Positions 2,967 through 36,311 of a stretch of DNA of 36,311 nt are shown one piece after another. The notes beneath the pieces were generated by a model that had not been told where the DNA came from, ran no database searches, and saw only the letters and a program-made list of their open reading frames with translations. The translations under genes and the position numbers were made by a program. Position 1 is the stretch's first letter, and the number at the start of each line of letters is the position of its first letter. This stretch comes from Silvibacterium sp. (GTDB lineage: Bacteria > Acidobacteriota > Terriglobia > Terriglobales > Acidobacteriaceae). The stretch lies in the NCBI GenBank assembly GCA_030037215.1, contig JASHRS010000065.1, positions 1-36,311 on the forward strand. Reading direction: 5' to 3'.

Positions 2967-2994
2967 GCGGGAGTGAAGTCCCGTACTTTCGTGC

Positions 2995-4366: not shown

Positions 4367-4367
4367 C

Positions 4368-4420: not shown

Positions 4421-4497
4421 TCATCCTGGATAGTTGGGAGATAATGCAGGCTCATCCTTGTTCCGGATGACAGCGTGATTTTGTATATACAGACTTT

Positions 4498-5430: not shown

Positions 5431-5496
5431 CCCCTTCGACTTCGCTCAGGGCGAGCTGTCCAGGCGACGGCTTCGCATGGCCCTCCCATTGGTTGG
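5431..5496 (+). repeat. dispersed repeat R1, copy before efp
   Basis: Starts on the base after the TAG of the gene ending at 5430: CCCCTTCGACTTCGCTCAGG, then GCGAGCTGTCCAGGCGACGG and CTTCGCATGGCC. The TTCGCTCAGGGC...CTGTCCAG(G/A)CGAC core is shared with 10564-10602. The tail CCCATTGGTTGG corresponds to CCCGTTGGTCGC of the trpE and trpG copies. Confidence 0.75.
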
Positions 5497-5520
5497 GAAT
5501 CTTAAAGTTTGAGATAAAAT
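5493..5520 (+). promoter_or_regulatory. candidate promoter of efp
   Basis: TTGGGA (5493-5498) and TAAAAT (5515-5520) are separated by 16 bases, about 97 bases before the efp start. The -35 part overlaps the end of the R1 repeat, so the repeat may contribute promoter bases. Found by eye only. Confidence 0.38.
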
Positions 5521-5616
5521 TGAAGGCGGAGCGTTTCTTCACAGCCCGCATGGGCGATTGAGGCATTTTCCCGAAATGCCGCGAAATTCTCAAGACATCA
5601 GTAAGGAGTTTTACTT

Positions 5617-6177
5617 ATGGCGATTCCCGCCACACAGATGCGTCCGGGCATGATTATCAAGCACAACGGCGAGCTACATGCCGTGTTTTCGGTGGAACAC
5701 AGGACGCCCGGCAACCTACGCGCGTTTATCCAGGCCAAGCTGCGGAATCTGCGCACGGGCGCAATGTTTGAGCACCGTTTTCGCTCGCCCGATCCGATTG
5801 ACCGGGTGGTGGTTGATGAGATTCCGATGGAGTTTCTCTACAATGACGGCGATGATTATTACTTCATGAACACGGAGAACTACGAGCAGACGCACCTGAA
5901 GCGGGACACGCTAGGCGATGCGGTGGAGTATCTGACGGCGAACCTGCAGATCACGGTGTCGTTCTTCGATGGCGTGGCGGTGGGCATTGAACTTCCGCAG
6001 ACCGTGGAGCTGACGGTTGTGGAGACCGAGCCGGGGCTGAAGTCGGCGACGGCGTCTTCGGTGACGAAGCCTGCGACGCTGGAGACGGGGCTGGTTGTGC
6101 AGGTGCCTCCGTTTATTAATGAGGGCGAGAAGATTCGCGTGGATACGGCTGAGGGGGCGTATCTTTCGCGTGCATAG
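5617..6177 (+). CDS. efp: translation elongation factor P
   Basis: Binds between the P and E sites of stalled ribosomes and helps peptide bonds form at consecutive prolines. The length of 186 residues is the family norm. It has the N-terminal KOW-like domain (ATQMRPGMIIKHNGELHAV), the middle OB domain, and the C-terminal OB signature (VTKPATLETGLVVQVPPFI, GEKIRVDT). AAGGAG at 5603-5608 fixes the ATG. The loop that reaches the tRNA reads RTPGNLRAF. The residue aligned with the modified Lys34 of E. coli is Asn33, so neither EpmA-type lysylation nor EarP-type rhamnosylation is possible at that residue. A terminator follows directly. Confidence 0.97.
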   Translation: MAIPATQMRPGMIIKHNGELHAVFSVEHRTPGNLRAFIQAKLRNLRTGAMFEHRFRSPDPIDRVVVDEIPMEFLYNDGDDYYFMNTENYEQTHLKRDTLGDAVEYLTANLQITVSFFDGVAVGIELPQTVELTVVETEPGLKSATASSVTKPATLETGLVVQVPPFINEGEKIRVDTAEGAYLSRA

Positions 6178-6197
6178 CTTGTATTGAGATAGTCGGA

Positions 6198-6229
6198 CGG
6201 CGCGGCGATGGCTGCGCCGGTTTTTTATT
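6198..6229 (+). terminator. rho-independent terminator after efp
   Basis: CGGCGC (6198-6203) pairs with GCGCCG (6214-6219), followed at once by six T (6221-6226). It begins 20 bases after the efp stop. Confidence 0.82.
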
Positions 6230-6311
6230 TGCGCTGTAATAGGTCAGTGTGTTGCGGTGCTTGCGCGGTGTCGGCGTATCTGAAAGACTGACTGCGCGTC
6301 GGTTGAATTTT

Positions 6312-6593
6312 ATGGTTCGTCATTATTTGATTAAGGGGCGTGTGCAAGGCGTGGGCTTTCGCTGGTATGTACACCGGGAGGCGGGCGCTCTTGGTTTGCA
6401 TGGCTGGGTTCGTAATACCGAGGATGGGCACGTCGAGGTCGTTGCGTCGGGCGAGGCCGAGGACCTGGAGCTGCTGCGGGAGGCGTTACAGCGAGGATCG
6501 CGCGGAAGCCGCGTGGACGCGATTGTGGAGCATGAGCTGGCGGACAGCGAAGCCGAGTGGCTTGGGCCTTTCCAGATTGAAGGCGCATGGTGA
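6312..6593 (+). CDS. acyP: acylphosphatase
   Basis: Hydrolyses the carboxyl-phosphate bond of acyl phosphates; small cytoplasmic enzyme. At 93 residues it is the usual length. The signature GRVQGVGFRWYVHREA carries the catalytic Arg (R17), and GWVRNTEDGHVEV carries the catalytic Asn (N35). The start at 6312 (MVRHYLIKGRVQ) matches the family; longer in-frame starts upstream would add unrelated residues. It follows the efp terminator and precedes apt by 71 bases. Confidence 0.94.
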   Translation: MVRHYLIKGRVQGVGFRWYVHREAGALGLHGWVRNTEDGHVEVVASGEAEDLELLREALQRGSRGSRVDAIVEHELADSEAEWLGPFQIEGAW

Positions 6594-6664
6594 AGCGCTA
6601 GCCAATGCGGTTGGTTTTCAGATTCATAATGCCGAGCATTAAAGAATTAAAGGAGCGGTGAATT

Positions 6665-7210
6665 TTGGTTACTCATCAACCCATCAATTGCGAGCCTTTG
6701 AAGGAACTGGTGCGCACGGTTCCGGATTTCCCCAAGCCGGGGATTTTGTTTTATGACATCACGACTCTACTGAAGGACAAGAAGGGATTTGCAGAGCTGA
6801 TCGATGCGCTGGCGGCGCACTATATCGGGAAAGAAGTTGATCTGGTGCTGGGCATTGAGGCGCGCGGATTTATTTTTGGCCCAGCGCTGGCATACCGGCT
6901 GAATGCGGGATTCGTTCCGGTGCGGAAGCCGAAGAAGCTTCCGGCGAAGACAGCGCGCGTGACATATGATCTGGAATACGGGACGGATTCACTAGAGATT
7001 CATCTGGACGCGATTGAAGCGGGACAGAATGTAGTTCTGGTGGATGATTTGCTGGCTACAGGCGGGACGATGGAAGCAACGGTGAAGCTGGTGCAGCAGC
7101 TCGGCGGGCATATTGCCGGACTGGCATTTGCTGTGGAGCTGGATTTTCTCAAAGGGCGCGAGCGGTTTCCCGATTTTGATGTGTTCAGCCTGCTGCACTA
7201 TAGCGAATAG
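6665..7210 (+). CDS. apt: adenine phosphoribosyltransferase
   Basis: Makes AMP from adenine and PRPP in purine salvage. At 181 residues it fits the family. The PRPP loop is [14 protein letters not shown] (about residues 121-134). Other family blocks are [17 protein letters not shown] near the start, [18 protein letters not shown] and RKPKKLPA. The start is TTG at 6665, chosen because AAGGAG at 6650-6655 lies 9 bases upstream and no ATG is suitably placed. The stop is followed by a run of AGCTAA-type repeat and then a terminator. Confidence 0.96.
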
Positions 7211-7271
7211 CTGAGAGGCGGGTAGCTAAAGTCCGGGTAGCAAAGAACCGGGTAGCTAAAAAGTGGTCGGC
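7211..7271. repeat. AGCTAA-type degenerate tandem repeat (R2), copy after apt
   Basis: Contains GGGTAGCTAAAGTCCGGGTA (7220-7239) followed by further GGGTAGC(T/A)AA units. The AGCTAA(A/G)GTCCGGGTAGC string recurs right after the mutS2 stop (13846 onward). No coding content. Confidence 0.7.
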
Positions 7272-7300
7272 AAAGAGGCGCAGGTATGCGTCTCTTTTGC
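7272..7300 (+). terminator. rho-independent terminator after apt
   Basis: AAAGAGGCGCA (7272-7282) pairs with TGCGTCTCTTT (7287-7297) through one G-U pair, with loop GGTA and a T-rich tail (TTTTGCTTT). Confidence 0.75.
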
Positions 7301-7340
7301 TTTGAGCTGCATTCCCCGCGCCACTCAAAGACATGATGCC

Positions 7341-7637
7341 CTATCTTTGCGTTCTATGTCCGAGTGAGGCGACCGCTTCCAGCTCGGAAATCTGCAGATG
7401 CTCCTGCGGCTTGAGATAGCCTTTGCGTCGAAGCCAGTCATCCATGGAGGTGCGTAGTTTCTCGATTGGGACGCGGTAGCCGGCTTCGAGGAGGCCGTCG
7501 GCGACAGGGAGCGTGTCGTCGAAGATAGCATCGTTGGTGAAATTGCGCATTGCGAAGCTGTCGATCCATTTCAGCGGGCAGGGGTCGGCGTGACCTTCGG
7601 CGTCGATGCGTTCGATGTGGAGTTTGCGGACAAACAT
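7341..7637 (-). CDS. hypothetical protein, 98 residues
   Basis: A small soluble protein of mixed composition with no signal peptide or membrane segment. Segments such as WIDSFAMRNFTNDAIFDDTL and MDDWLRRKGYLKPQEHL look like a real folded protein. The reading frame fills the space between two AGCTAA-type repeat blocks. I see no known domain. No clear ribosome site precedes the ATG at 7637, so the start and the gene itself are less certain than its neighbours. It lies on the same strand as pckA and downstream of it, across a repeat block. Confidence 0.55.
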   Translation of the reverse strand: MFVRKLHIERIDAEGHADPCPLKWIDSFAMRNFTNDAIFDDTLPVADGLLEAGYRVPIEKLRTSMDDWLRRKGYLKPQEHLQISELEAVASLGHRTQR

Positions 7638-7640
7638 AGA

Positions 7641-7738
7641 AAAGCAGCTAAGAAGCAGGTAGCTGGTGAAGCGGGCAGCTAAAGTCCGGTTGGCTAAAGC
7701 CGGGAGCGGAATTCAATTGATCAGCCAGCTAACAGAGT
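7641..7738. repeat. AGCTAA-type degenerate repeat (R2), copy after pckA
   Basis: A run of AGCTAAGAAGC, AGGTAGCTGGTGAAGCGGGC, AGCTAAAGTCCGGTTGGCTA and CAGCCAGCTAACAG. GGTGAAGCGGGCAGCTAA (7666-7683) recurs with one change at about 9404-9421 on the other side of pckA, so pckA is bracketed by related repeats in direct orientation. Confidence 0.7.
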
Positions 7739-7745
7739 AAAACAA

Positions 7746-9332
7746 TCACCCCTTGCGGTGTAGACCGGCGGCGCGGATGTTTTCCGGAACATCGAACCTA
7801 CGGAAGTTTTCCTCGAATTTTGCAGCGAGGATGCGAGCCTGCGCGTCATAGGCGGCTTTGTCGGCCCAAGCGTTGCGCGGGTTCAGGATTTCGCTGGGTA
7901 CGCCGGGGCATGAGATGGGGATGCTGAGGCCGAAGGCGCTTTCAGTGATGTATTCGACCTGTGCGAGCGAGCCATCGAGAGCGGCGTTGACCAGAGCGCG
8001 GGTGTGCGGGAGGCTCATGCGGCGCCCCACGCCGAAGGCTCCGCCAGTCCAGCCGGTGTTGACGAGCCAGCACTGCGCGTTGTGTTCGCGGAGACGATGG
8101 CCGAGCATTTCGGCGTATACCTTGGGTGCAAGCGGGATGAAGGGCGAGGCGAAGCAGGTGGAGAACTCGGGAACGGGCTCGCTGCCGAGTCCGGCTTCGG
8201 TACCTGCGAGCTTGGCGGTGTATCCCGACAGGAAGTGATACATAGCCTGATCGGGCGTGAGTTTCGCGATGGGCGGCAGAACTCCGAAGGCATCGGCAGC
8301 GAGGAAAAGCACGTTGCGAGGATGGCCGCCCATGCCGGGGATGACGGCGTGGGCGATGAACTCGATGGGATAGGCAGCGCGTGTATTTTCAGTGTAGCGG
8401 ATGTCAGAGTAGTCGGGGTTGCCGGTCTTTTCATCGATGACCACGTTCTCAAGTACAGACCCGAAGCGTATGGCGTGATAGATCTGAGGCTCTTTTTCCT
8501 CGGAGAGATCGACGCACTTGGCGTAGCATCCGCCCTCGAAGTTAAAAACGCCGGCGGGGCTCCAACCGTGCTCGTCGTCGCCGATGAGGCGGCGCAGTGG
8601 GTCGGCGGAGAGCGTGGTCTTGCCGGTTCCGGAGAGACCGAAAAAGAGAGCAGAGTCGCCAGCGTTGCCTATATTGGCGGAGCAGTGCATGGGGAAGACA
8701 TCGCGCGGCGGGAGCAGGTAGTTCATGACACCGAAGATGGACTTTTTCATTTCTCCGGCATATTTGGTGCCGCCGATGAGGATGATTTTGCGAGTGAAGT
8801 CGGTAAGTATGAAGGTTTCTGAGCGGGTGCCATCGCGCTCGGGGATGGCTTCAAATTCGGGTGCTGCTATGACGGTGAATTCGGCGGCGTGCGAAGCAAG
8901 CTGATCAGGTGCTGGACGCACGAAGAGTTGTTTGACGAAGAGCGCGTGCCATGCGTACTCGCAGACGATGGTGATAGGGAGTTGGTATGCAGGGTCGGCT
9001 CCGGCGCAGAGGTCCATGATGTAGAGGTCGCGTTCGGACATGTGACGCATGACGCGGTCAAGAAGGGCCTGGAGCTTATCCGGCGGAAATGGCTGGTTGA
9101 CTTTGCCCCAATTGACGGTAGTTTTTGTGAGATCGTCTTCGACGATGAATTTGTCGCGGGGAGAACGACCGGTGCGCGCGCCAGTGAGCGCAACGAGTGC
9201 GCCATTCGATGCAAGACTAGCTTCGCCGCGCGCGAGCGCAGCCTCGACCAGTTGCGGTGTAGAGAGGTTGCGGTGAACGTGTGGCCCCTCCATCAGGCTT
9301 CGGGCGCCGTGGGCGACACTGGCTGCTCCCAT
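7746..9332 (-). CDS. pckA: phosphoenolpyruvate carboxykinase (ATP)
   Basis: Interconverts oxaloacetate and PEP with ATP; key step of gluconeogenesis, cytoplasmic. The length of 528 residues is normal. It has the kinase-1a P-loop GLSGTGKTTLSADP (about residue 230), then LIGDDEHGWSPAGVFNFEGG with the metal and ATP site acids, and the N-terminal TGARTGRSPRDKFIVED. Also present are IHRIGGTKYAGEMKKS-like substrate residues (read here as LIGGTKYAGEMKKSIF) and NTGWTGGAFGVGRRM. The ATG at 9332 has AAGGAG on the minus strand at 9344-9349. It is monocistronic or leads a short operon with the gene at 7341. Confidence 0.97.
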   Translation of the reverse strand: MGAASVAHGARSLMEGPHVHRNLSTPQLVEAALARGEASLASNGALVALTGARTGRSPRDKFIVEDDLTKTTVNWGKVNQPFPPDKLQALLDRVMRHMSERDLYIMDLCAGADPAYQLPITIVCEYAWHALFVKQLFVRPAPDQLASHAAEFTVIAAPEFEAIPERDGTRSETFILTDFTRKIILIGGTKYAGEMKKSIFGVMNYLLPPRDVFPMHCSANIGNAGDSALFFGLSGTGKTTLSADPLRRLIGDDEHGWSPAGVFNFEGGCYAKCVDLSEEKEPQIYHAIRFGSVLENVVIDEKTGNPDYSDIRYTENTRAAYPIEFIAHAVIPGMGGHPRNVLFLAADAFGVLPPIAKLTPDQAMYHFLSGYTAKLAGTEAGLGSEPVPEFSTCFASPFIPLAPKVYAEMLGHRLREHNAQCWLVNTGWTGGAFGVGRRMSLPHTRALVNAALDGSLAQVEYITESAFGLSIPISCPGVPSEILNPRNAWADKAAYDAQARILAAKFEENFRRFDVPENIRAAGLHRKG

Positions 9333-9381
9333 GGGTTTTTCGGCTCCTTACTAACAGCAAACCGAGTATTGTCCCATTGGA

Positions 9382-9433
9382 ACCAGCAAGTCAGCAAGTC
9401 AGCGGTGAAGCGGCCAGCTAAGAAGCGGTCAGC
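9382..9433. repeat. AGCTAA-type degenerate repeat (R2), copy upstream of pckA
   Basis: AACCAGCAAGTCAGCAAGTC followed by AGCGGTGAAGCGGCCAGCTA and AGAAGCGGTCAGC. It shares GGTGAAGCGG(C/G)CAGCTAA with the copy at 7641-7738. Confidence 0.62.
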
Positions 9434-9477
9434 ACGCCTGCGGCGCGGGCAAGGCAGCGGGTTAGCACCGCGCTCCT

Positions 9478-9885
9478 TTAGGGGTTGGGTTGGGCGTCGG
9501 CGGCGAGTTCCAAATCCGGGATAAGAGGCGGAAGTTTGCTGGTGTGTCCTGCTTCATGGAGGACGGCGTCGAGGTGTTCGAGGACTTCGTCGACGGTCAT
9601 TGTGTACATTTCGCGGCCATTATCATAGCCGGATTCGATGGCCTGCTTGAGGTAGCGCCCGGCAATCTGCGCGGCGAGCGCGTCAGTGATGGCGTGGCCT
9701 GTGCGTTTCTTCTGCTCGACCCAGGCCATGCAGGGCATGGCGATCCATACAGGGCGCCCATTGACATCAAAGCGGATGTCGACGGCGTCGGCGTGGCGGG
9801 TGGAGATGGCGACTATATTTGCTGTCCAGCGGCAATGGAGGGAATCGCCAGTCCAGCGATCGGTTGCATGGAAGTCTTCGTACAT
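9478..9885 (-). CDS. hypothetical protein, 135 residues
   Basis: A soluble protein with no signal peptide. The first half looks beta-rich (WTANIVAISTRHADAVDIRF, then NGRPVWIAMP) and the second half helical (ITDALAAQIAGRYLKQAIES, VDEVLEHLDAVLHEAG). In the central part (AWVEQKKRTGHAITDALAAQ) the residues look globular, but I do not recognise a named family. It lies upstream of pckA on the same strand, separated by 145 bases holding a repeat. Function unknown. Confidence 0.7.
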   Translation of the reverse strand: MYEDFHATDRWTGDSLHCRWTANIVAISTRHADAVDIRFDVNGRPVWIAMPCMAWVEQKKRTGHAITDALAAQIAGRYLKQAIESGYDNGREMYTMTVDEVLEHLDAVLHEAGHTSKLPPLIPDLELAADAQPNP

Positions 9886-9922
9886 AGCTGCTTTCTAGCC
9901 TAACAGGTGCTGGCCGCATGGG

Positions 9923-9981
9923 GGACTTGCCGTCCAGACACATGCGCCTTTGGCGCGATACCCGTGCTGATTTTTGTGGCC
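9923..9981 (+). repeat. dispersed repeat R1, copy before the dksA-like gene
   Basis: GGACTTGCCGTCCAGACACA, then TGCGCCTTTGGCGCG and GTGCTGATTTTTGTGGCC. It has the same 59-base length as the copy at 31-89. Unlike most copies it does not follow a plus-strand stop codon; it lies in the divergent gap between 9885 and 10130. Confidence 0.72.
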
Positions 9982-10129
9982 ATGCTGTTGGCGGGCTGTG
10001 ATTTGATGGTGCTTGAAAAAAGAGCGGATTGTGGAAAAAAGAAAGCGAATCGGGCCAAACCTGCGTCCAATTTCTATCGTCAAAGTGTGCTGATGCACGA
10101 GATGTTCATAAATCTGAGGAGTTGTTGCG

Positions 10130-10510
10130 GTGTCTATAAACGCTCAATCTAAACGGCGCTATACTGAGCGTCTTCTCCAGCAGAAAAGGTCGCTGGAACA
10201 TTCCACCCTTAACGCAGTTGAGCAAGGGCGCGAGGCAATTGCCGAAGATGCCCAGGACGCGGCTGACCAGGCGGTGTTTTCCTACCAGAAGGAATTTTTG
10301 TTTACGCGAGGCACGCATGACCACGGGCAACTGGCGCTGGTGAAAGGCGCGCTGCAACGCCTGAAAGAAGGCGGTTTTGGCGAATGCGCGGTGTGCGGGA
10401 CACAAATTGGAGCGAAACGGCTGGAAGCTCTGCCGTGGACTCCCTACTGCATTGACTGCCAGGAGAAGATCGAACGCGGCGAAATAGAGGATCCGGGCAG
10501 AGCGGCGTAA
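10130..10510 (+). CDS. DksA/TraR family zinc-finger protein
   Basis: Members bind in the RNA polymerase secondary channel and alter initiation, often with ppGpp. This one has 126 residues, shorter than E. coli DksA. An N-terminal helical part carries DAADQA (about residues 42-47), which fits the D-x-x-D-x-A tip motif of active DksA coiled coils. The C-terminal zinc finger has four cysteines, C-x2-C-x17-C-x2-C, in CAVCGTQ and YCIDCQ. The GTG start at 10130 has GAGGAG at 10116-10121. The fold and tip motif are visible; actual ppGpp synergy is inference. Confidence 0.9.
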   Translation: MSINAQSKRRYTERLLQQKRSLEHSTLNAVEQGREAIAEDAQDAADQAVFSYQKEFLFTRGTHDHGQLALVKGALQRLKEGGFGECAVCGTQIGAKRLEALPWTPYCIDCQEKIERGEIEDPGRAA

Positions 10511-10563
10511 AGACTTGTTCTTTCGCTTCCCACCCACGGACGAAGATCTGTCCGCGGAATCCC

Positions 10564-10602
10564 GGTTCGCTCAGGGCAGGCTGTCCAGACGACTGCGTGT
10601 CG
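10564..10602 (+). repeat. dispersed repeat R1, copy after the dksA-like gene
   Basis: GTTCGCTCAGGGCAGGCTGT followed by CCAGACGACTGCGTGTCGC. It matches the TTCGCTCAGGGC and CTGTCCAGRCGAC blocks of the copy at 5431-5496. Just before it, CGGAC...GTCCG (10537-10554) can form a small hairpin. Confidence 0.65.
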
Positions 10603-10688
10603 CCAATACATATTCGGCGCTGTCCTGACACAATCTTTGCGGTGCTTCCGCTGGCCGAGCAGGTGGTTGAAGGAAAGCCAGAGCGTTC

Positions 10689-11207
10689 TTATGGCGGGGC
10701 CATCTGTTCGTATTCCTGACCGGAGGGACCGGGCAACAGCACCCAGAGGGTGTAGATGGCGAGCACAGTCCCGGTTATGGGCTTGAGGATGGTCAGAAAG
10801 GCGGCGACGATGGCAAGGATTCGCGCCCAGGACAGGCGGTTGACCAGCGCGATTCCGGTAACTACGGAGAGGATTGTGCGGCCGATGAGCACAATGGTGA
10901 TGATGGGCACGAGCCAGTGCATCCCGCCGAAGGGACCAAACTCGCCCCAAGGGCCGTGGTTCCAGTGGCCGAAGTAGTTGCCGAGAAAGCCCCCAAAGAT
11001 GGACAAAGCAATGAGCCAGCCGAAGAGGGTCCAGACTCCATATGCGATCCATAGGATGGAGAGTGCCTGGATGTGGCGGTGAACGCGCGTGTAGAACCAG
11101 GGTGTAGGCGCGCCTGGAGCAGCCGCAGGAGGGACGACGGGGCGTCCACAGTTGGGGCAGAATTGCTGCCCTGGTGGAATGAGCTGTCCGCATCCGCCGC
11201 AATACAT
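10689..11207 (-). CDS. zinc-ribbon membrane protein
   Basis: A 172-residue protein. It starts with a short zinc ribbon (MYCGGCGQLIPPGQQFCPNC), CxxC-x12-CxxC, then a Pro/Ala linker, and three to four membrane helices (about 50-72, 95-115, 120-140, 143-158). Zinc-ribbon plus membrane architecture is common and uncharacterised. I prefer the ATG at 11207: GAAGGAGG on the minus strand (11213-11220) is 5 bases upstream, whereas the ATG at 11222 overlaps that ribosome site. It is divergent from mutS2. Function unknown; cysteines may bind zinc on the cytoplasmic side. Confidence 0.8.
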   Translation of the reverse strand: MYCGGCGQLIPPGQQFCPNCGRPVVPPAAAPGAPTPWFYTRVHRHIQALSILWIAYGVWTLFGWLIALSIFGGFLGNYFGHWNHGPWGEFGPFGGMHWLVPIITIVLIGRTILSVVTGIALVNRLSWARILAIVAAFLTILKPITGTVLAIYTLWVLLPGPSGQEYEQMAPP

Positions 11208-11298
11208 ATGAGCCTCCTTCATTAGCCATTAGCCAACTGTGAATAGATACGCAGGGCAATGAACCGTTGTTCCCGAGTGAACGATTAGGATTGAGTTT

Positions 11299-13845
11299 GT
11301 GGCATTCACTCGATCCATTCCACAACGTGTGAGCGATTGTAGCGGGTCTGCGCTCGAATGGGACCATCTTCTTGAATTGCTGGCCGGATATGCACAGTCG
11401 GCAGCGGGCAAGGCGTGTATCAGGGAGTTTGGGCCGTCGAGGGAGCAGGAGTGGATTGAACGAGAGCACTCGAAGGTAGACGAGACACGGCTGCTGATGA
11501 ACAGAGGCGGAAGCCTACCGGGGCTGGCGGCGCTGTTTGATCCTTCAGAATTGCTGGCGAAGGCACGGATCGAGGGTGCGGCGCTGGACGCGGAAGAAAT
11601 TCGCTCGGTTGCAATGCTAGCGGACGTGATTGCGACATGGGCGGGCGTGTTACAGGAACCCGCAGGTGATCTGGCGGAAAAGTTGCCGCGTTTACGGGAG
11701 CTATTCGGCGAAGTGCTGCCGCTGAAGCCGCTGGCGGATTCGATACGCGGAAAATTTCTTCCGGACGGAACTCTGGAGGACGATGCGTCTCCCGAGCTGA
11801 GGCGGATACGGCGCGAGATGGAGCAGCAGCATCGCGCGATTGAGAACAGCCTGCGGGCGGCGCTACGGCGGTACTCAGAGGGAGGGTCGGCGCAGGATGA
11901 GCTGATTACGATTCGCGGCGAGCGGTTCGTGATTCCGGTGAAAGCGGAATGGAAGCGGCGCGTGCATGGCGTGGTGCATGGCGCGAGTTCAAGCGGACAG
12001 ACAGTGTATGTAGAGCCGCTGGAGACGATTGAGCTGAACAACGAACTGGTACGGCTGTTAGAAGACGAGCAGGCTGAGATTCATCGAATTTTTCGGACGA
12101 TGACGCGACAGATTGCGCAGCATGCGGGCGTGATTCTGAAGGGCGCCGAAGCGCTGTGCGAAGTGGACACTCTTTTGGCGCGGGCGCGGTTTGCGGTGGA
12201 GTTCATATGTGTGAGGCCTAAGTTTGGCGATGATTCTACCTTTCCCACCCTTGCGCAAAGTGCGCGCAAGGATGGGGCACCCATATTCGTTCCTGAATTG
12301 AGATTGAAAAAGGCGCGACATCCGTTGCTGGAACGCGGACTCGCCGTCCAGGCACACGCGCTTCGCGCACAAGGCGAGGCGCGCCAGGTTGTCCCTATCA
12401 GCCTGACGCTCACGGATGAAGTGCGGCAACTGGTGATCAGCGGGCCAAACACGGGCGGGAAGTCGGTAACGCTGAAGACGGTGGGCTTGCTGGCGATGAT
12501 GGCACAGAGCGGGATTCCGGTGCCTGCGGCGGAAGCGGTGCTGCCAGTGTTCGATGCGTTTCTGGCGGATATTGGGGACGCGCAGTCGATTGAGCAGAAT
12601 CTGTCGACATTTTCGGCACATGTAATGAATGTGAACCGTATTGCGAAGCGTGCGGATGCGGCATCACTGGTTCTGTTGGATGAGCTGGGGTCGGCGACGG
12701 ACCCGGATGAGGGGTCGGCACTGGCGGTAGCGATTGCGGAGCACTTTTTGCGGGTACGGGCGTGGGTGGTTCTGTCAACGCATCTGACTGCGCTGAAGGT
12801 TTATGCGGAGAATACGCCGGGAGTGGTGAATGCAGCGGTGGGATTCGACGAAGAGACGCTTGCTCCGACGTATGAACTGCGGCAGGGCGTTCCGGGGGCA
12901 TCGGCAGGGATCAATGTAGCGGCGCGGCTGGGATTGAATACAAAGATCGTCGAGCGGGCGCGAGCTAGGATGGGATCGCAGACCGAGGAGATTGGGAAGT
13001 TTCTGTCGCGACTGCATGAGCAGTTGCAGGAGCTGGCTGTGGAACGGGAACGTGTGCAGAAGCTAGAAGCTGAACTGAGGCACGAGCGGCAGCGGCTGGA
13101 TGCGGAAGGCATGAAGGAGCAGCGCGCGAAGGTACAGGAGATGGAGCAGAAGCTGACGTCGCTGCTGAAGGATTTCGAGTATCAGATGCGCGAGGCGGTG
13201 AAGGCGATCGATGACCGCGCGGCGCAGCAGAAACTGTCGAAGGATGCGGAGCGAAGAATCTCACGGCTGCGACGGGGGTTTGCGGAGAGCTTTAACGACG
13301 CTGTGGTGGCGCACCATACGGGCGCGGACCAGGGAGACACGAACGCGCAGCCGCATGTTGTGCGGAATGTAGGCGTAGGCGATACGGTGCGGCTGAAGAC
13401 GCTTGGGAAAGACGCTGTGGTGCAGCGGCAGATCGATGACAAGACGTTTGAGGTTTCGGTTGGATTGATGAAGATGCGCGTGGGGCGCGATGAGATTGCT
13501 GCTGTAGTTAAGACGGGAGCGGCGGTGAGTGCAGCGAGCCCGTTGCAGGCGGCGCGGGCGCAGAAAGGGATTTCTGTGACAGCAGCGGAACCGGATGAGA
13601 ACCTCAATTGGGAGATCAATGTGATCGGGCGCACGGCGGACGAGGCGCGAGATGAGGTGGAGAAATTTCTGGACAGGGCGTTTCTGGCGGGATTGCCGCG
13701 GGTGCGGATTATTCATGGGACGGGGATGGGGGTACTGCGGCGGACTCTAAGAGCATATCTGGAGAAGCATCCGCAGGTCGCCAGCGTGACGGAGCCAGGG
13801 CAGAATGAAGGCGGTGCGGGAGCGACAGTGGTAGAGCTGAGATAG
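11299..13845 (+). CDS. mutS2: MutS2 family ATPase / Smr-domain protein
   Basis: MutS2 proteins act on branched DNA or collided ribosomes rather than in mismatch repair. Domain order: helical MutS-like lever (1-300), ATPase with Walker A GPNTGGKSVTLKT (about 382) and Walker B LVLLDELGSATDPDEG (about 457), a long coiled coil (about 570-660), a KOW-like part (about 690-730) and a C-terminal Smr domain (773-848) with HGTG. The usual LDLRG at the Smr start reads INVIG, so the LDxR nuclease residues are missing. At 848 residues it exceeds the usual ~780-800. Two extra segments at about residues 310-332 and 346-362 are encoded by palindromic or dispersed repeat DNA. GTG start with AGGA upstream. Confidence 0.95.
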   Translation: MAFTRSIPQRVSDCSGSALEWDHLLELLAGYAQSAAGKACIREFGPSREQEWIEREHSKVDETRLLMNRGGSLPGLAALFDPSELLAKARIEGAALDAEEIRSVAMLADVIATWAGVLQEPAGDLAEKLPRLRELFGEVLPLKPLADSIRGKFLPDGTLEDDASPELRRIRREMEQQHRAIENSLRAALRRYSEGGSAQDELITIRGERFVIPVKAEWKRRVHGVVHGASSSGQTVYVEPLETIELNNELVRLLEDEQAEIHRIFRTMTRQIAQHAGVILKGAEALCEVDTLLARARFAVEFICVRPKFGDDSTFPTLAQSARKDGAPIFVPELRLKKARHPLLERGLAVQAHALRAQGEARQVVPISLTLTDEVRQLVISGPNTGGKSVTLKTVGLLAMMAQSGIPVPAAEAVLPVFDAFLADIGDAQSIEQNLSTFSAHVMNVNRIAKRADAASLVLLDELGSATDPDEGSALAVAIAEHFLRVRAWVVLSTHLTALKVYAENTPGVVNAAVGFDEETLAPTYELRQGVPGASAGINVAARLGLNTKIVERARARMGSQTEEIGKFLSRLHEQLQELAVERERVQKLEAELRHERQRLDAEGMKEQRAKVQEMEQKLTSLLKDFEYQMREAVKAIDDRAAQQKLSKDAERRISRLRRGFAESFNDAVVAHHTGADQGDTNAQPHVVRNVGVGDTVRLKTLGKDAVVQRQIDDKTFEVSVGLMKMRVGRDEIAAVVKTGAAVSAASPLQAARAQKGISVTAAEPDENLNWEINVIGRTADEARDEVEKFLDRAFLAGLPRVRIIHGTGMGVLRRTLRAYLEKHPQVASVTEPGQNEGGAGATVVELR
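12244..12276. repeat. palindrome inside mutS2
   Basis: CCCACCCTTGCGC (12244-12256) pairs with GCGCAAGGATGGG (12264-12276) at 12 of 13 positions, with loop AAAGTGC. It lies exactly in a segment of MutS2 (residues ~310-332) that I do not find in the family. It looks like a short intergenic palindromic element captured in frame. No second copy was seen in the window. Confidence 0.6.
12337..12368 (+). repeat. dispersed repeat R1, copy inside mutS2
   Basis: GGACTCGCCGTCCAGGCACA at 12337-12356 is identical to 31-50; it is followed by CGCGCTTCGCGC. It encodes LAVQAHALRA in MutS2, the same frame in which the trpE copy encodes LAVQATPS. Confidence 0.75.
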
Positions 13846-29234: not shown

Positions 29235-31901
29235 ATGGCAGACGAACAGAATCCCCAGCTTCCTCTTGGCAACGGTAACAGCGGAGATACTCCCGGCGGT
29301 TCAGGACCGGGGGCAGCAAACCTTGTCCCGATCAACATTGAAGACGAGATGCGGCGGTCGTATCTCGATTATTCAATGTCGGTGATTATCGGACGCGCGC
29401 TGCCGGACGTGCGCGATGGCTTTAAGCCGGTCCATCGGCGCATTCTCTACTCGATGCACGAGATGGGGCTACAGCACAACAAGAAATATACGAAGTGCGC
29501 GAAGGTCGTGGGTCAGGCGATGGGCGTGTACCATCCTCACGGCGACTCGGCGATCTACGACACGCTGGTGCGACTGGCGCAGCCGTTCAGCCTGCGCTAT
29601 CCGATGGTTGATGGGCAGGGGAACTTCGGATCGGTGGACGGCGATCCTCCGGCAGCGATGCGTTATACCGAGTGCCGGATGACGCGCATCGCGGGCGAGA
29701 TGCTGAACGACATCGAGATGGAGACGGTGGATTTTACGCCGAACTACGACGAGTCGACGTTTGAGCCCACTGTGCTGCCGACGCGGATTCCGAACCTGAT
29801 TGTGAACGGGTCGAACGGAATTGCGGTGGGAATGGCGACGAATATTCCTCCACATAATTTGACCGAAGTGATTAACGCCGCAATTGAGATGGTGAACAAT
29901 CCGCAGGCGGGGCTGGCTGAAGTGTTGAAGCATGTGCAGGGGCCTGATTTCCCGACGGGCGGGTTTATTTATGGGCGCGCTGGGATTGCGAATGCTTACA
30001 AGACGGGCCGCGGGCGCTTTTTGATGCGTGCGAAGTGCGCGATTGAAAACCTGACGCAGGGGCGGCAGTCGATTATCGTCAGCGAGATTCCTTACCAGGT
30101 GAACAAGAACACACTGATCAAGCGCATTGCGGAGCTGGTGAACGACAAAACCATCGACGATATCGGCGACGTGCGCGATGAGAGCGACCGCGACGGCATG
30201 CGGATTGTGATCGAGCTGAAACGCGGTGCAGAGGCGCAGATTGTGCTGAACCAGCTCTACAAGCACACGCAGATGCAGGAAAGTTTCTCGATGATTTTTC
30301 TGGCTGTGGTGAACGGCCAGCCGAAGGAGCTTTCGCTGCCAGCGGCGATCCGGCACTTTATCGATCATCGCGTGGATGTGGTGCGGCGGCGGACGGCGTT
30401 CCTGCTGAGGAAGGCGCGTGAGCGGGAGCATATCCTGCTCGGCTACCAGATTGCGCTGGACCATCTGGACAATGTGATCAAGATTATTCGCGGGTCTTCG
30501 TCGAGAGTGGACGCGAGGGAGAACCTGTTCCAGTTCTTCTCGGGCAAGACGATTACGGTTCGTGGGTCTGAGCTGAAGGGTGTGAAGCTGGATCCGGCGA
30601 AGTACGCAGTGGATATGGCTACGGTGCAGACGGCGACGCTGATTCTAAGCTATCGGCAGATTGACGCGATTCTAGAACTGCAGCTGTATCGCCTGACGCA
30701 GCTTTCAATTGATGAGCTGTTGAAGGAGCTGGCTGAGGTTCGCGAAAAGATTGCCGAGTACGAGTCGATTCTGGGTTCGGAGAAGAAGCTGCGCGCGGTG
30801 ATTGTGAAGGAACTGGAGCAGGTCCGGAAAGATTACGGCGATGTGCGGCGGACTGAGATTCTGGACGAGACGGCTGAATTGCAACTTGAGGACCTGATTG
30901 CCGATGAGCAGGTTGCGGTGACGGTGTCGCACTCGGGATATCTGAAGCGGACTCCGATTTCTACCTATCGGCAGCAGCGGCGCGGCGGTACGGGGCGTTT
31001 GGGGATGAAGACGCGCGAGGAGGATTTTGTCTCGCAGCTGATTATCGATTCGACCCATGCCTATTTGCTGTGCTTTACGAATTCGGGCCGCGTGTACTGG
31101 CTGAAGGTGTATGAGATTCCGGATGTGGGAGCGGCAGGCAAGGGTAAGTCGATTGCCAGCCTCCTAAATTTGCAGCCGGGTGAGACGGTCAGAACGATTC
31201 TTCCGGTGCGGAATCTAGAAGAAGAGGGCAGGTTTATCTTCTTTGCGACACGCAAGGGTACGGTGAAAAAGACTCCGCTGAAGGACTTCTCGAATGTAAT
31301 GTCGAGGGGGATCATCGCGATTGGAATTGACGACGACGATGAACTGATTGGCGTGAGGATTACTGACGGGACGCAGGTTGTGTTTTTGGCCACGCATAAT
31401 GGCATGGCGATCCGCTTTGACGAAAATGATGTGCGTTCGATGGGGCGACCGGCATACGGCGTGCGAGGCATTGACTTGGCCAGGAATGATTATGTGGTTG
31501 GGATTGCAGTAACGCCGAAGGAGAGACGCAGGAATGGCGATGGCGCGCAATGCGATTGCTTGATCCTCTCAGTAACGGAGCAAGGTTATGGCAAGCGCAC
31601 GGATGTGGATGAATATCGTTTGCAGTCGCGCGGCGGCAAGGGTGTGATCAATGTGAAGACGACGACGCGCAATGGGAAAGTATCGTCAATTCAGCTTGTC
31701 GACGAATCGTCGGAGTTGATGGTCATCAGCCAGTACGGGAAGATCATCCGAATTGATACGAAGACGGTTCGCGCGGCGGGAAGATCGACGCAGGGAGTGA
31801 AATTACTCAACCTTGAGCCCGAAGACAAGGTTGCGGCGGCAGTGGTGATTCCTCCTGAGGAAGTTAAAGCCGAACCGGAGAATGGAACGCTGTTGCAGTA
31901 A
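29235..31901 (+). CDS. gyrA: DNA gyrase subunit A
   Basis: Breaks and rejoins DNA in the gyrase A2B2 complex, introducing negative supercoils. At 888 residues it is full length, with an extra Gly/Pro/Asn-rich lead of about 30 residues. The active-site tyrosine is Tyr144 in [10 protein letters not shown]. The quinolone region [18 protein letters not shown] has Ser105 and Asp109, the drug-sensitive type. The C-terminal beta-pinwheel carries a GyrA box reading QRRGGTG, with Thr where Lys or Arg is usual. There is no recognisable ribosome site before the ATG, which follows a run of T. A strong terminator lies just downstream; gyrB is not in the window. Confidence 0.96.
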
Positions 31902-31971: not shown

Positions 31972-32676
31972 TCAGAGCGCGGCGATTGTGATGCAGACAC
32001 GCCCTATGATGCAGGCGGATGGTGAATCCTCCGTGCCGGGCCTGAGTAATTCGACCGGATGATCAAGCGAATGCGGCCGAAGGATAAGGCGGTTGGCCTC
32101 ATAACTGACATAGCGGAAGACCAACGTGTCTGCGAAGTTGACTGCGTAAACATTCGGGCGCGGCGGCAAGACCGGCGCGAGCGAGTTGTAATGCCTGTCC
32201 AGAACAACGATCGAGTTTGCGCTAAGAACCGGGTCCATAGGCCGCGCCTGCAGCGGATTGACGCGCACAGCAAGAAAGCGCTGCCAATCGCGCCGTGCAA
32301 GCGTGCGGCGGGGGCGGAGTTGCTCGAGCGTTCCGGCGGGTAGATGAACGATCTCGAGGATAGAACGAGGGTGCACGATGGGAGAATGCAACGCGGTTAC
32401 ATGCGAAACGAGGGGCACCATGTAGGTATCTCCTGTGGTGATTTCAACTTCGGTGCGATGACTTCCCGGCAGGAGATCTTCGATGCTAAGCAACTGCGCG
32501 GTGAGGATACGATCGAGCGCGGAGAGGCTGAGCCTACGCTTACGACGGATGAAATTGGAAAGATGTGAGGCCTGAAGGCCTGTCTGCCGGGCAAGAATCG
32601 TACCGGTGAGCTGTCCGCGGTCGATGCGGTGAGTTATCTCAAGGCGGAGCCGCTCGTGGAGTTGGGAAAAGTTCAT
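31972..32676 (-). CDS. XRE-type repressor with degenerate S24/LexA-like domain
   Basis: A 234-residue DNA-binding protein. Residues 12-62 are a helix-turn-helix of the XRE kind (TGTILARQTGLQASHLSNFI, then RRKRRLSLSALDRIL). The C-terminal half resembles the S24 peptidase/CI-repressor fold: PMDPVLSANSIVVLDRHY, NVYAVNFADTLVFRYVSY, LILRPHS and CIIGRV. In true S24 proteins the Ser of the S-M-x-P motif and a Lys before the R-x-x-x segment act together. Here these positions read Pro and Phe/Arg, so self-cleavage looks impossible. It is divergent from the small operon at 33153 and may control it. Confidence 0.8.
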   Translation of the reverse strand: MNFSQLHERLRLEITHRIDRGQLTGTILARQTGLQASHLSNFIRRKRRLSLSALDRILTAQLLSIEDLLPGSHRTEVEITTGDTYMVPLVSHVTALHSPIVHPRSILEIVHLPAGTLEQLRPRRTLARRDWQRFLAVRVNPLQARPMDPVLSANSIVVLDRHYNSLAPVLPPRPNVYAVNFADTLVFRYVSYEANRLILRPHSLDHPVELLRPGTEDSPSACIIGRVCITIAAL

Positions 32677-33152
32677 CTGTGGAATTTTGTCTTTAAGCTA
32701 TTTGCCTTTATTTAAGAAGTTTGCTGATTGCAAAGCAGCCGAGCCGCATTTACCAGCTTTTAGGGTGTAACTAAAGAGTAGACACAAAGGCAGAAATGGC
32801 GCAGCGCCGCAAGCCTGATTGACGGACATAAGTTGCAACTATAGAGTCGGTAACACTTTCGCCAACGAGCTGAATAGTATTTCACCAGTGCCGAGCTGCT
32901 GGAGGCATCACTGCGAGACCCGCGGTTGGTCAACTATGTTGCGCTTTATGGGCGGCCTGAAACCAATAATACGATCTCTGCAATGGCGACAGGAGTTATG
33001 CCTTGTGATCTGCGAGTACGTCCGAAGATACGCCAATGTGGAAGGATATGTTGCCGGAGCAATCCAGAGCGCGGACATAGCATGCCTTTCACTTTTCCCG
33101 CGGAAGTATGTCTGGGCTAAGCCGCGGCGGTTCACATATGCCTTGGAGATAT
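32677..33152. other. 476-base divergent gap with coding remnants
   Basis: No single convincing gene. The part next to the repressor is AT-rich and holds TTGC-N5-GCAA (32721-32733), a weak operator candidate. TTGACG (32819) and TATAGA (32840) sit 15 bases apart as a poor promoter candidate. From about 32886 to 33100 two different plus frames carry protein-like stretches: LLEASLRDPRLVNYVALYGR in one, and EYVRRYANVEGYVAGAIQSA (from about 33013) in another. This suggests a gene broken by frameshifts. Confidence 0.45.
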
Positions 33153-33350
33153 ATGGTCTATTCGCGCGTTTATCTGAAAATTTGCGAAGGGTGCGGCGGG
33201 CTTTGGTTTCGCACCATAGGTGAAAGGAATGTTTACTGTGCCTCATGTGAGAACCGGTTGAGGAGCTTCTACAAACCAACGAGGCGCAGACCAGGGAGGC
33301 CCCGCAAACATATAACAAGTACTGCAAATACTAAGGGAGGCGCACGATGA
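33153..33350 (+). CDS. 65-residue zinc-ribbon protein with AT-hook-like tail
   Basis: A mini-protein. CEGC (Cys11, Cys14) and CASC (Cys29, Cys32) make a C-x2-C-x14-C-x2-C zinc ribbon. The following TRRRPGRPRK (43-52) contains the GRP core flanked by basic residues that defines AT-hook DNA-binding motifs. I chose the ATG at 33153 with GGAG just upstream; an in-frame ATG at 33138 is possible. Its stop overlaps the next start (ATGA), so the two are translationally coupled. DNA binding is inferred from the motifs. The family seems familiar from acidobacterial genomes beside sigma-like genes, but I cannot verify that here. Confidence 0.72.
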   Translation: MVYSRVYLKICEGCGGLWFRTIGERNVYCASCENRLRSFYKPTRRRPGRPRKHITSTANTKGGAR

Positions 33351-33802
33351 GCGCCGCCCTGATATTGCCTTACGTATGGGCCACGGTGAAAGATCGGGGC
33401 CCGGAGCGACAGCGAAACGGTGAGCGTCCCAGGGAGGAACTGGCCTTTTTCCGGAAACGCACGGAGGGGCTGTTACGGCGCTATCTACGCGCTTCGCTTT
33501 CCGTGGGCCGCGTGCCATCGGTATCAGAAAACCTCACGTTGCGAGGGCGCGTATCCAGCTATCGCATCAAGAATTTTGAAGACGTCGTGATCTTCGCGAT
33601 TGACGTGGAAAAGTGTATGAAGGCGCTCGATCCACAGGCTCTTCACCTAGTCGTGAAGGTGGCATTACAAGAGTACATGCTGCTGGAAGTTGCTGAGCAA
33701 CTTCGCCAAGATGTACGCACGATTACCCGCCACTATGGTGAAGCACTGGACCAGCTAACAGTGGAATTTCTCAAGAAAAAACTTCTTATTCGGGAGGGTT
33801 AA
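33347..33802 (+). CDS. small sigma-region-4-like transcription regulator
   Basis: A 151-residue protein. Residues 93-147 (LDPQALHLVVKVALQEYMLL, then EVAEQLRQDVRTITRHYGEA) form a helix-turn-helix like region 4 of sigma factors, seen also in phage late regulators of the ArpU/RinA kind. The N-terminal part is basic and helical (FFRKRTEGLLRRYLRASLSV) followed by SYRIKNFEDVVIFAIDVEKC. It has no region 2, so it cannot be a full sigma factor. GGGAGG at 33335-33340 gives a strong ribosome site. It overlaps the zinc-ribbon gene by 4 bases. The target may be the large gene downstream; that is inference from position. Confidence 0.82.
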   Translation: MSAALILPYVWATVKDRGPERQRNGERPREELAFFRKRTEGLLRRYLRASLSVGRVPSVSENLTLRGRVSSYRIKNFEDVVIFAIDVEKCMKALDPQALHLVVKVALQEYMLLEVAEQLRQDVRTITRHYGEALDQLTVEFLKKKLLIREG

Positions 33803-33932
33803 ATTTTCCTGTCAAGAGGGGCAAATGTCGAAAACCTAGACAAATTATTGAAAGCCGGGTGGTTATAAATTTACAGAGTGATGCATTTAATTATTGCCTA
33901 ACTTGATATTCTGAACTTAAGAGAGAAGAAAT

Positions 33933-33972
33933 AAAGGGAGACGCCGTTTGCAGGCGTTTCCCTTTTGTTTTG
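33933..33972 (+). terminator. terminator hairpin upstream of the large secreted-protein gene
   Basis: AAAGGGAGACGCC (33933-33945) pairs with GGCGTTTCCCTTT (33953-33965), one G-U pair, loop GTTTGCA, followed by TTTTGTTTT. It lies 130 bases after the regulator stop and only 47 before the next start codon, so it could end the small operon or act as an attenuator in the leader of the next gene. Confidence 0.85.
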
Positions 33973-34019
33973 GCAGGAAAGAGTCAGGAGTTTAAAGCTG
34001 GATGAGGCGGATACCCGAT

Positions 34020-36311
34020 ATGAGGCGATTGGTTGCAGCATTAGGCACCGGATGGGCGCTGTTATTGTCAATGATCCCAGTTTGTGCAATCGCACAGGTT
34101 GCCACGACAACTGTGCAGGGCACGGTGTACCTCGCCGATGGAAGCCTTGCGAGCGGAACGCTGTTAGTGAGCTGGCCGGCATTTTCGACAGTAGCAGACC
34201 AGGCGGTTGCCGCCGGCAGCATTTCTACTGTGATTGGGTCGAATGGCTCAGTCAGCTTGAATCTGGCTCCGAATGAGGGGGCATATCCCGCTGGCACCTA
34301 CTATACGGCCGTCTACCATCTGAGCGACGGGACAGTGAGCCGAGAATATTGGGTGGTTCCTGCGACGACGAGCACAACGATTGGCGCAGTTCGTGCGCAA
34401 CTGGCGCCGGCTACCGTTGCCGTGCAGCCGGTTTCCAAGTCGTACGTCGATGATTCGATTGCTGCGATTACCGGCAACTATGTTCCACTTGCCGGCGGAA
34501 CGATGACAGGACCTCTCCAATTGAGCAGTGATCCTGTTTCGACGAATCAGGCTGCGACGAAGCACTATGCGGATGGCCTAGCAGCGGAGGAGCTCCCATT
34601 GGCAGGGGGGAGCCTGAGCGGCACTCTAAATGCTCCTAATGTGGTGGCCAAGCTGCCGAAGGTCGATGTGCGGGATCCAGATTTCGGCGCCGGGTGCGCA
34701 AATGCAGCAGATCCCACCGGACAGCAGGACTCGACCTGCGCGATTGAAGCAGCCATTGCCTGGACACAGGCGAATCCACAAGGTTCGATGAACGCCAGTG
34801 TCTATCTTCCTGCAGGAACCTATAAGATAAGCGCGGCTCTCTATGTTCCCTGCTACCTGCATTTTGTCGGAGACGGCGAAATGTCAACGATCGTTGAGCA
34901 GACGAATAATAGCGCGAATGTCGTTACTGTTTATAGCGGTGGCGGACCATTCCATCAGCCGAATCTGTGGACCTGCAACGGGTCGATCGAAAACATGACA
35001 TTGCATGCTCCGGCTGGTCATCTTTACACGGCAACCCTGCTCGAGCTCCAGAACGCTGTCGGGTACAACGTGTCCAACATCCGCGGGAGCAACAGCGGCG
35101 GCCGCGGGTTGGCTACTGTGGGGCAGACGGAGCGGTTGAAAATATTCAACACGGAATGGGATACGGTTCGCTGGCCTATTGTGATTACCGGCAATGAAGT
35201 AAAAGCATATGCCACGCAGATTGAATCACCGGGAGCGGATGCTTCGGGCTATTGTTATGACAACAATTGTCCCGGCGGTATTTACCCCGGTTATTCGTGG
35301 AGCAAGCCGCAAGTTCTAGTTTCCGCAAGCGGGAACGGGACAACAGCAACCTATATAGTGCAGGGAGGGAACGATAGCAACAGCAGCAATGGCATTTCGC
35401 CTCTTGTCGCGGGACATTACTTTACAGTTGCCGGAATTCCCGATGTCACCGCCCTCAACGGTGTCTATCAGATTGCATCTGTTGCGAACAATAGCCCGCA
35501 AAGCGGCGAATACACGGTAACAGCCAACAGCACTGCGAATGGAACCGGGACCGTTACAGGAGCGACATATAAACCGACACTGCTGCCCAGTAACCAGATA
35601 GGCGCGATTTATTTTGTCGGAAATGAGGACAATTTCTATAGCGGTTCCATCAAGGCAACATGGCACGAGCCATGTTTTGAAGCGGCTGCAGGCGTAATGT
35701 CCGGTATCATCGATGGCTTCTACTGCGAGGGCTATCCCATTAATGGGATGCCGATTCTTAATGCTGATGTTCTGATCGGTGGGCTACAGCCGTGGACGTC
35801 GACTACAGGGACGATCTCCAATTCAGAAGTATCTGTAGCCAGCACAGCAGACTTTCCCTATTACATCAACAACCCTGGAGACGTGGCCAATTTCGGAGTG
35901 GGATTTCAGTATTGGATTGAACCGCAGGACTTTTTGAAAGGAAGTACCGCGCCATCAGCCTATGTGGCCGGAGTTGAGCAGGGTCAATACGAGCTTATTT
36001 CGGGATGGTTTGCAGGAGATGGAAATTTTCATATCACCTCACGCAATGGGAATGGCTCAACTGCTCCTTCAAACACCAACTGGCCAGCAGGTTCCATTCT
36101 TGCTGAACCACCGGCAGGTTCGGGTTATGGCACAGTTCGCATAAGCAGCATGCACATGAATTCCATCGAAGGTGCGGGCCCGAACTGGGCGGCCTATTGC
36201 GTCGATTCAAATCAGTACATCTGTTCCGAAGCTGTGGTGGGGAGCATTCCTAATGGGTACACGACCTATTCAACAGCAAACGGGAATGGAGGAGCACCAG
36301 GTGCGGATTTC
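34020..36311 (+). CDS. large secreted protein with tail-fibre repeats and pectate-lyase-like fold (partial)
   Basis: Open to the window edge: 764 residues seen, no stop. A signal peptide ends at about residue 25 (VCAIAQ). Residues 28-125 are a beta-sandwich-like domain (TVQGTVYLADGSLASGTLLV). Residues 140-205 carry two phage tail-fibre motifs: YVPLAGGTMTGPLQLSSDPV with ATKHYAD, then LPLAGGSLSGTL. From about 215 the pattern VDVRDPDFGAG...AIEAAIAW...VYLPAGTYKIS is the start of a pectate-lyase-3 type right-handed beta-helix, as in tail spikes. The remainder is Asn/Ser/Gly-rich beta sequence. Codon choice is less GC-rich than in the housekeeping genes. GAGG 12 bases upstream is a weak ribosome site. 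Likely a surface or secreted glycan-binding protein; the ligand is unknown. Confidence 0.85.
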   Translation, partial: MRRLVAALGTGWALLLSMIPVCAIAQVATTTVQGTVYLADGSLASGTLLVSWPAFSTVADQAVAAGSISTVIGSNGSVSLNLAPNEGAYPAGTYYTAVYHLSDGTVSREYWVVPATTSTTIGAVRAQLAPATVAVQPVSKSYVDDSIAAITGNYVPLAGGTMTGPLQLSSDPVSTNQAATKHYADGLAAEELPLAGGSLSGTLNAPNVVAKLPKVDVRDPDFGAGCANAADPTGQQDSTCAIEAAIAWTQANPQGSMNASVYLPAGTYKISAALYVPCYLHFVGDGEMSTIVEQTNNSANVVTVYSGGGPFHQPNLWTCNGSIENMTLHAPAGHLYTATLLELQNAVGYNVSNIRGSNSGGRGLATVGQTERLKIFNTEWDTVRWPIVITGNEVKAYATQIESPGADASGYCYDNNCPGGIYPGYSWSKPQVLVSASGNGTTATYIVQGGNDSNSSNGISPLVAGHYFTVAGIPDVTALNGVYQIASVANNSPQSGEYTVTANSTANGTGTVTGATYKPTLLPSNQIGAIYFVGNEDNFYSGSIKATWHEPCFEAAAGVMSGIIDGFYCEGYPINGMPILNADVLIGGLQPWTSTTGTISNSEVSVASTADFPYYINNPGDVANFGVGFQYWIEPQDFLKGSTAPSAYVAGVEQGQYELISGWFAGDGNFHITSRNGNGSTAPSNTNWPAGSILAEPPAGSGYGTVRISSMHMNSIEGAGPNWAAYCVDSNQYICSEAVVGSIPNGYTTYSTANGNGGAPGADF

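Follow-up and report, generated by a model that had tools for sequence, protein, structure and literature searches.

A phage-type switch in Silvibacterium sp. heads a putative gene-transfer-agent-like particle locus of the Acidobacteriaceae

What does a phage-type regulatory switch control when it is found beside gyrA in a member of the Acidobacteriaceae? The question is raised by contig JASHRS010000065.1 of Silvibacterium sp. (assembly GCA_030037215.1), at the right end of which, past gyrA (29235-31901), an XRE-type repressor gene is divergent from a pair of small genes encoding a zinc-ribbon protein and a sigma-region-4-like protein, followed by a terminator and the gene of a large spike, or fibre, protein. 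The window, that is, the whole stretch of DNA analysed, is this contig at its full length of 36,311 nucleotides (contig C129 of genome G000, which is 89% complete in 314 contigs). The original prediction, made from the window, was that a domesticated phage switch may control a secreted surface protein, with no integrase, capsid or terminase visible. The last statement is true of the window, but its capsid and terminase part is a contig-edge effect only, because the contig ends inside the fibre gene. The domesticated phage-type switch stands; what it fronts is a whole particle cluster, with terminase, portal, putative capsid, connector and tail.

We read the locus, with a probability of about 0.72, as a viriform resembling the gene transfer agents (GTAs), vertically inherited and independently domesticated in the Acidobacteriaceae, in which a RogA-like repressor would hold a two-gene activator in check, the activator working at a late promoter whose leader contains a terminator. 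What the sequences show directly are the genes present, their conservation and vertical inheritance, the site, the losses, the selection and the cis elements; these lend good support to a domesticated particle locus, and DNA transfer by this locus is what we infer from them.

In the relatives, the fibre gene is followed by the genes of TerL, a HipA-like kinase, a DUF3037 protein, the portal, C10, C16, the putative capsid, the head-tail adaptor, C12, C11, C5, C1, C20 and C26 (these labels denote proteins of the cluster, while C129 and C65 denote contigs of G000). C10 is a putative protease (protease-like by reading), C1 is a candidate for the tip or hub (770 amino acids), and C20 and C26 are small, membrane-type proteins. 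The order is conserved in the genomes mapped, over 14-26 kb (mostly about 19 kb), and the end of the cluster adjoins purE and purK, with odhB, lipB and lpd beyond, a site common to many genera. In three genomes of one genus (G016, G052 and G091) the capsid block comes first, and the fibre and TerL genes after it. In line with the original prediction, the four genes of the window stay together in the genomes closest to G000. In G000 itself, the genes from portal to tip, together with C20, are found on contig C65 with all frames open. A search of this genome did not find TerL, which most likely falls in the stretch between C129 and C65 that the assembly lacks; the HipA/DUF3037 pair was not recovered in G000 either, probably also owing to a contig gap. 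On one further contig (L155, IMGVR_UViG_3300047175_000078, 1-11715) the C16-capsid pair is joined directly to unrelated phage-like genes, including those of proteins of 596 and 801 amino acids; the junction reflects the insertion of a phage into the cluster or a chimeric assembly.

The portal matches PF04860 (8e-59) and TerL matches PF17289, with HipA_2 and DUF3037 profile matches between them; terminase, portal and head-tail adaptor have PHROG matches, and the adaptor profile matches the phage adaptor gp8. Among PDB entries, the portal matches the RcGTA portal chains (best, E 3e-6) and one other phage portal, and no others. The AlphaFold model of C5 (pLDDT 69) has a tail-tube fold, matched by Foldseek at E 5e-9 and by VIA at Z 12.3 (157 residues superposed with an rmsd of 3.7). 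C1 has no PDB match by profile. HipA and DUF3037 are adjacent in the relatives and match PADLOC PDC-M66A/B. No integrase or replication gene was recognised among the conserved cluster genes of the mapped relatives, where small unknown open reading frames could hide one.

The capsid gene is present as a single copy in 98 of the 150 family genomes sampled (one copy, in G066, is a fragment), with 70-91% identity to the query. Outside the family none was found: a sample of 396 genomes of the phylum gave 35 matches, all in family f1. Capsid, repressor and activator had no match in 50,697 phage records (INPHARED for the capsid), and the closest TerL in a phage has 34% identity. Averaged over 253 pairs, pairwise identity is 0.78 for the capsid, compared with 0.74 for gyrA and 0.83 for recA. 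A tree built from eight structural proteins has 15 of 20 splits in common with that of gyrA and recA, more than gyrA and recA have with each other (11/20), while shuffled labels share ~0.2 splits; it recovers all six multi-member genera. These trees are single FastTree runs on 23-24 genomes in which some deeper nodes disagree, and the capsid-only tree carries little signal (8/20 splits).

Remnants of the cluster mark its loss at the purE site. A truncated repressor gene abuts a truncated C20 gene in G055, lies next to purE in G050, and abuts the last 48 residues of the capsid in G066; zinc-ribbon, sigma-like and truncated C20 genes are left in G040, a truncated sigma-like gene joined to C20-C26 in G049, and a C20 fragment with C26 in G037. 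The end points of these scars differ, and therefore several independent losses from a common ancestral locus must have occurred. The cluster is under purifying selection, with dN/dS of 0.02-0.44 for all its genes tested (median 0.11 for the capsid), and the G+C content of the cluster is near that of its flanks. In the G052/G091 pair, the synonymous divergence of the capsid gene (0.76) is lower than that of its neighbours (1.1-2.2), a difference that may stem from codon bias or from recombination at the capsid gene. In two other genomes, G039 (L256, 7938-9723) and G044 (L259, 7642-9467), HipA/DUF3037 alone is left between the left flank (Gfo) and purE, as if the pair resisted deletion or had a function of its own.

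Packaging, head and tail genes directly downstream would also be seen if an ordinary prophage, temperate or cryptic, were simply widespread in the family, and the original prediction had taken such genes, if found there, as the sign of an ordinary prophage. Formally they are there in the relatives; IMG/VR classes 13 capsid-bearing contigs as viral, the majority of them with the same cluster, and acidobacterial prophages are known (PMC5900883). The locus is nevertheless not an ordinary prophage, because it is inherited vertically, exists as a single copy, occupies one housekeeping site across many genera and carries no recognised integrase or replication genes. The host-congruent trees, the gyrA-like conservation of the capsid, the strong purifying selection, the deletion scars and the absence of capsid, repressor and activator from the phage records all speak against a prophage, which we consider very improbable and have rejected. 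The narrower idea, that the switch controls the secreted surface protein only, fits the window, where the fibre alone follows the switch and a terminator separates the two; with TerL and the head and tail genes behind the fibre in the relatives, and the portal-to-tip genes of G000 intact on C65, it is barely credible.

A domesticated particle could also serve its host without transferring host DNA, be it as a bacteriocin-like or anti-competitor particle or as a vehicle that delivers the spike or a HipA-type toxin. The secreted spike would suit such a role, as would the embedded HipA/DUF3037 pair, since PDC-M66 is a toxin-antitoxin defence pair (PMC12548924, PMC13092281). Against this role, terminase, portal and capsid are kept under purifying selection here. 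To our knowledge, tailocin-like devices need none of these three proteins, and we regard a particle of this kind as rather unlikely.

Under the reading as a GTA-like viriform, the switch would be the regulatory head of the cluster, and its elements are collected in Table 1. The C-terminal part of the repressor is Peptidase_S24-like (3 of 16 family members match, best E 2.9e-10). The suspicion that its cleavage residues are lost was correct, because in an alignment of 21 homologues SM reads PM and the position of the catalytic Lys reads Arg in the window protein; both residues of the Ser-Lys dyad are kept in G022 alone. Judged by this dyad, the window protein appears not to be a self-cleaving repressor of the CI/LexA type. 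Homologues are found in 106 of 150 genomes of the order, almost always in one copy. Upstream of the repressor gene, the relatives have a full inverted repeat of the half-site TTTTCTTTGAGCTA with a spacer of 20-24 nt. The repeats are perfect in G113 and G138 (arms of 14 and 12 bp, TTTTCTTTGAGC(TA), 20-23 nt apart; 0/200 shuffles) and near-perfect in G073 and G082, the only genomes with a significant palindrome; in G000 it is not significant, and a degenerate half alone is present. At up to 2 mismatches, the half-site occurs genome-wide only upstream of the repressor gene in G113, G138, G026, G073 and G082. Twelve genomes of genera g7 and g8 (G024, G032, G046, G047, G079, G088 and others) have the sigma-like gene and the capsid and no repressor match; control therefore differs there, or the repressor has diverged.

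The activator pair is coupled and divergent from the repressor, as had been described, with the start of the sigma-like gene overlapping the zinc-ribbon stop. The zinc-ribbon protein has a CxxC-CxxC pattern and an AT-hook-like tail (RRPGRPRK); its Pfam Zn_ribbon match is weak, yet the protein is conserved in the relatives. Sigma70_r4_2 is matched by 11 of 14 homologues of the sigma-like protein, the window copy being weak on its own. Such homologues occur in 110 of 150 genomes of the order, almost always as a single copy, and co-occur with the capsid (Fisher p 1.6e-19, a value that ignores the kinship of the genomes). Sigma-70-like promoters are no more numerous in the window alone than in shuffles; the relatives show similar TTGAC/TATA elements before the pair.

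Across the relatives, the sigma-like gene is followed by the element TGTCAAG(A/G)GG and by an extended -10 of the form TGnTATTCT, often with TTGGC 21 nt upstream. The terminator announced before the large protein was confirmed, and is conserved in the relatives, starting about 20-25 nt after the -10. The combined pattern of extended -10 and close terminator gives exactly one match per cluster region in 12 genomes, always past the sigma-like gene, and 0 matches on any of the reverse strands. With a promoter that runs into a terminator almost immediately, and the first late gene next in line, the late genes may be controlled by read-through of this leader terminator, by analogy with phage late antiterminators. 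GafZ in Caulobacter offers a second parallel (PMC11150451).

Table 1. Positions of the switch elements and the spike gene in the window
Feature	Position	Strand	Remarks
XRE/CI-like repressor	31972..32676	-	HTH_26 and degenerate S24 domain
Degenerate copy of operator half-site TTTTCTTTGAGCTA	32685..32700	+	just upstream of repressor gene
Sigma-70-like promoter TTGACG-17-TAGAGT	32819..32847	+	consensus match; reads toward zinc-ribbon/sigma-like pair
Zinc-ribbon/AT-hook small protein	33108..33350	+	start uncertain; 33138 or 33150 fits conservation better
Sigma-region-4-like protein, putative late activator, 151 amino acids	33347..33802	+	start overlaps zinc-ribbon stop
TGTCAAGAGGGG element	33810..33821	+	conserved at or just beyond 3' end of sigma-like gene
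Extended -10 TGATATTCT, putative late promoter	33904..33912	+	pattern search
Intrinsic terminator, strong	33933..33965	+	~20 nt after -10 element; immediately precedes fibre gene
Secreted spike/fibre protein, truncated by contig end	34002..36311	+	signal peptide by reading, tail-fibre-like repeats, pectate-lyase fold

The elements can be joined into a mechanism. A tailed-phage particle cluster of about 18-20 kb would have been domesticated early in the Acidobacteriaceae and been vertical since, the module of the window being its regulatory head and spike gene. The non-cleavable XRE repressor would bind the palindrome beside its own gene and keep the divergent zinc-ribbon/sigma-like operon down, until a signal distinct from RecA cleavage lifts the repression. 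The sigma-like protein and its zinc-ribbon partner may then act at the extended -10 promoter that lies just behind the sigma-like gene, where they would favour initiation, help RNA polymerase through the leader terminator, or do both. This would lead to the expression of the spike, TerL, HipA/DUF3037, portal, protease, capsid, adaptor, tail tube, tip and the two small membrane-type proteins. Particles would package host DNA and be released by lysis, and the Sec-exported spike with its pectate-lyase fold may cut or bind surface polysaccharide, aiding delivery. The order of the regulatory events, like the identity of the capsid, the packaging and delivery of host DNA and the function of the spike, is our interpretation of the genes and elements described above.

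Several points weigh against this account. The putative capsid matches no profile, PHROG or PDB entry, and AlphaFold gave no usable model of it (pLDDT 36); the name capsid therefore comes from its position, its size and its conservation. Genes for a tape measure, a small terminase or an endolysin were not recognised in the clusters of the mapped relatives; they may be located elsewhere, or the particle may have a very short tail. Roughly one in three of the sampled family genomes is without the capsid. Regulators and structural genes are unlinked in G111, G071, G096 and G075, which keep both parts, with the regulators elsewhere or outside the stretch examined, and a search of the structural-cluster regions of these four genomes did not find the late-promoter element. 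The sigma-like protein is a putative antiterminator, and particles, packaged host DNA and transfer are predictions from sequence.

Six features characterise GTAs (PMC9662315), and three of them are recognisable here. The proteins derive from tailed phages, as seen in the profiles of TerL, portal and adaptor and in the tail-tube fold, with the capsid placed by synteny only. The locus is fully endogenised, often at several loci in GTAs, and here chromosomal at the purE site in many genera, with the split loci of the four genomes above. Inheritance is mostly vertical with host co-diversification, as seen in the shared splits, the six genera and the deletion scars. The other three features are the encapsidation of mostly random host DNA, a locus too large for its own particles, and the delivery of packaged DNA to cells (PMC9662315).

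The control logic closely recalls that of Caulobacter crescentus, where RogA, a LexA-like repressor with key cleavage residues missing, represses gafYZ, both products of which switch on the GTA (PMC9632790), and where GafZ acts by antitermination past terminators in the GTA cluster (PMC11150451). Common to both are a non-cleavable LexA/CI-like repressor over a two-gene activator operon for a vertically inherited particle cluster, activators at a promoter, and terminators in play. In contrast to Caulobacter, the repressor gene here lies next to the activator pair and the particle cluster and is divergent from them, a zinc-ribbon and a sigma-region-4-like protein would serve as activators, and the terminator follows closely on the -10. 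By this analogy the logic would be the same and the proteins different; the likeness claimed is one of logic. With RcGTA and the Rhodogtaviriformidae (PMC9662315), the locus shares the TerL-portal-capsid-adaptor-tail order, vertical inheritance with host co-diversification, pieces at separate loci in some hosts, and the best PDB match of its portal. It differs in a capsid without detectable kinship to any PDB or PHROG capsid, in the lack of a recognised tape measure, in HipA/DUF3037 between TerL and portal, in a spike with a signal peptide, and in its Acidobacteriota host.

HipA/DUF3037 (PDC-M66; DS-6/HipAD) defends against phage, the kinase toxin being neutralised by DUF3037 (PMC12548924; PMC13092281). 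The pair described here resembles the known ones in adjacency and in its PDC-M66A/B matches, and is unlike them in being embedded in a particle cluster, or alone at the site in G039 and G044. A role in release, locus stability or superinfection defence is conceivable because GTA release in Caulobacter is controlled by an immune-like system (PMC13236601).

Proven GTAs are confined to few groups, namely alphaproteobacteria, Brachyspira, Desulfovibrio and Methanococcus (PMC9662315, PMC11841831), and no description of a GTA in Acidobacteriota was found in the literature searched. On the most specific form of our proposal, an independently evolved GTA lineage, the first in Acidobacteriota, convergent on the RogA/GafYZ logic, with a HipA/DUF3037 toxin-antitoxin built in between terminase and portal and a Sec-exported spike conditioning the cell surface for DNA delivery, we hold the odds to be evenly balanced. 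If true, a family-wide particle locus, conserved like gyrA, would add a new phylum to the GTAs, a second unrelated lineage in which to ask why selection keeps such particles, and a route of gene exchange in abundant soil bacteria. Two features lend themselves to direct tests, namely the convergent use of a CI-like repressor that cannot be cleaved to govern two activator genes, and the presence of a defence toxin-antitoxin pair inside the cluster.

Phage genes have been described in subdivision 1 Acidobacteria before, in the prophage clusters 140 and 153 (PMC5900883). Those were described as prophages, in contrast to the inherited viriform proposed here. In G060, probably the genome of T. saanensis, the cluster-153 interval is without these genes and the locus lies at 67-98 kb; in this one interval, identity with clusters 140 and 153 finds no support.

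The spike carries a PF12708 (Pect-lyase_RHGA_epim) domain (E 3.6e-11), in agreement with the pectate-lyase-type fold ascribed to it. The signal peptide and two tail-fibre motifs of the original prediction were seen as well, by reading only: the repeats SKSYVDDSI / ATKHYADGL are tail-fibre-like, and an N-terminal Sec-type signal peptide is visible by inspection in 18 family genomes checked (34002-34100 in the window). Tail fibres encoded in phage-type structural clusters do not usually carry a signal peptide. The tailspike of RcGTA, TspA, is co-produced with the particles, loosely attached, and degrades biofilm (PMC13420450), and is a possible functional parallel. In G064 (L094/L077) two fibre paralogues stand in tandem, with the N-terminal part conserved in both.

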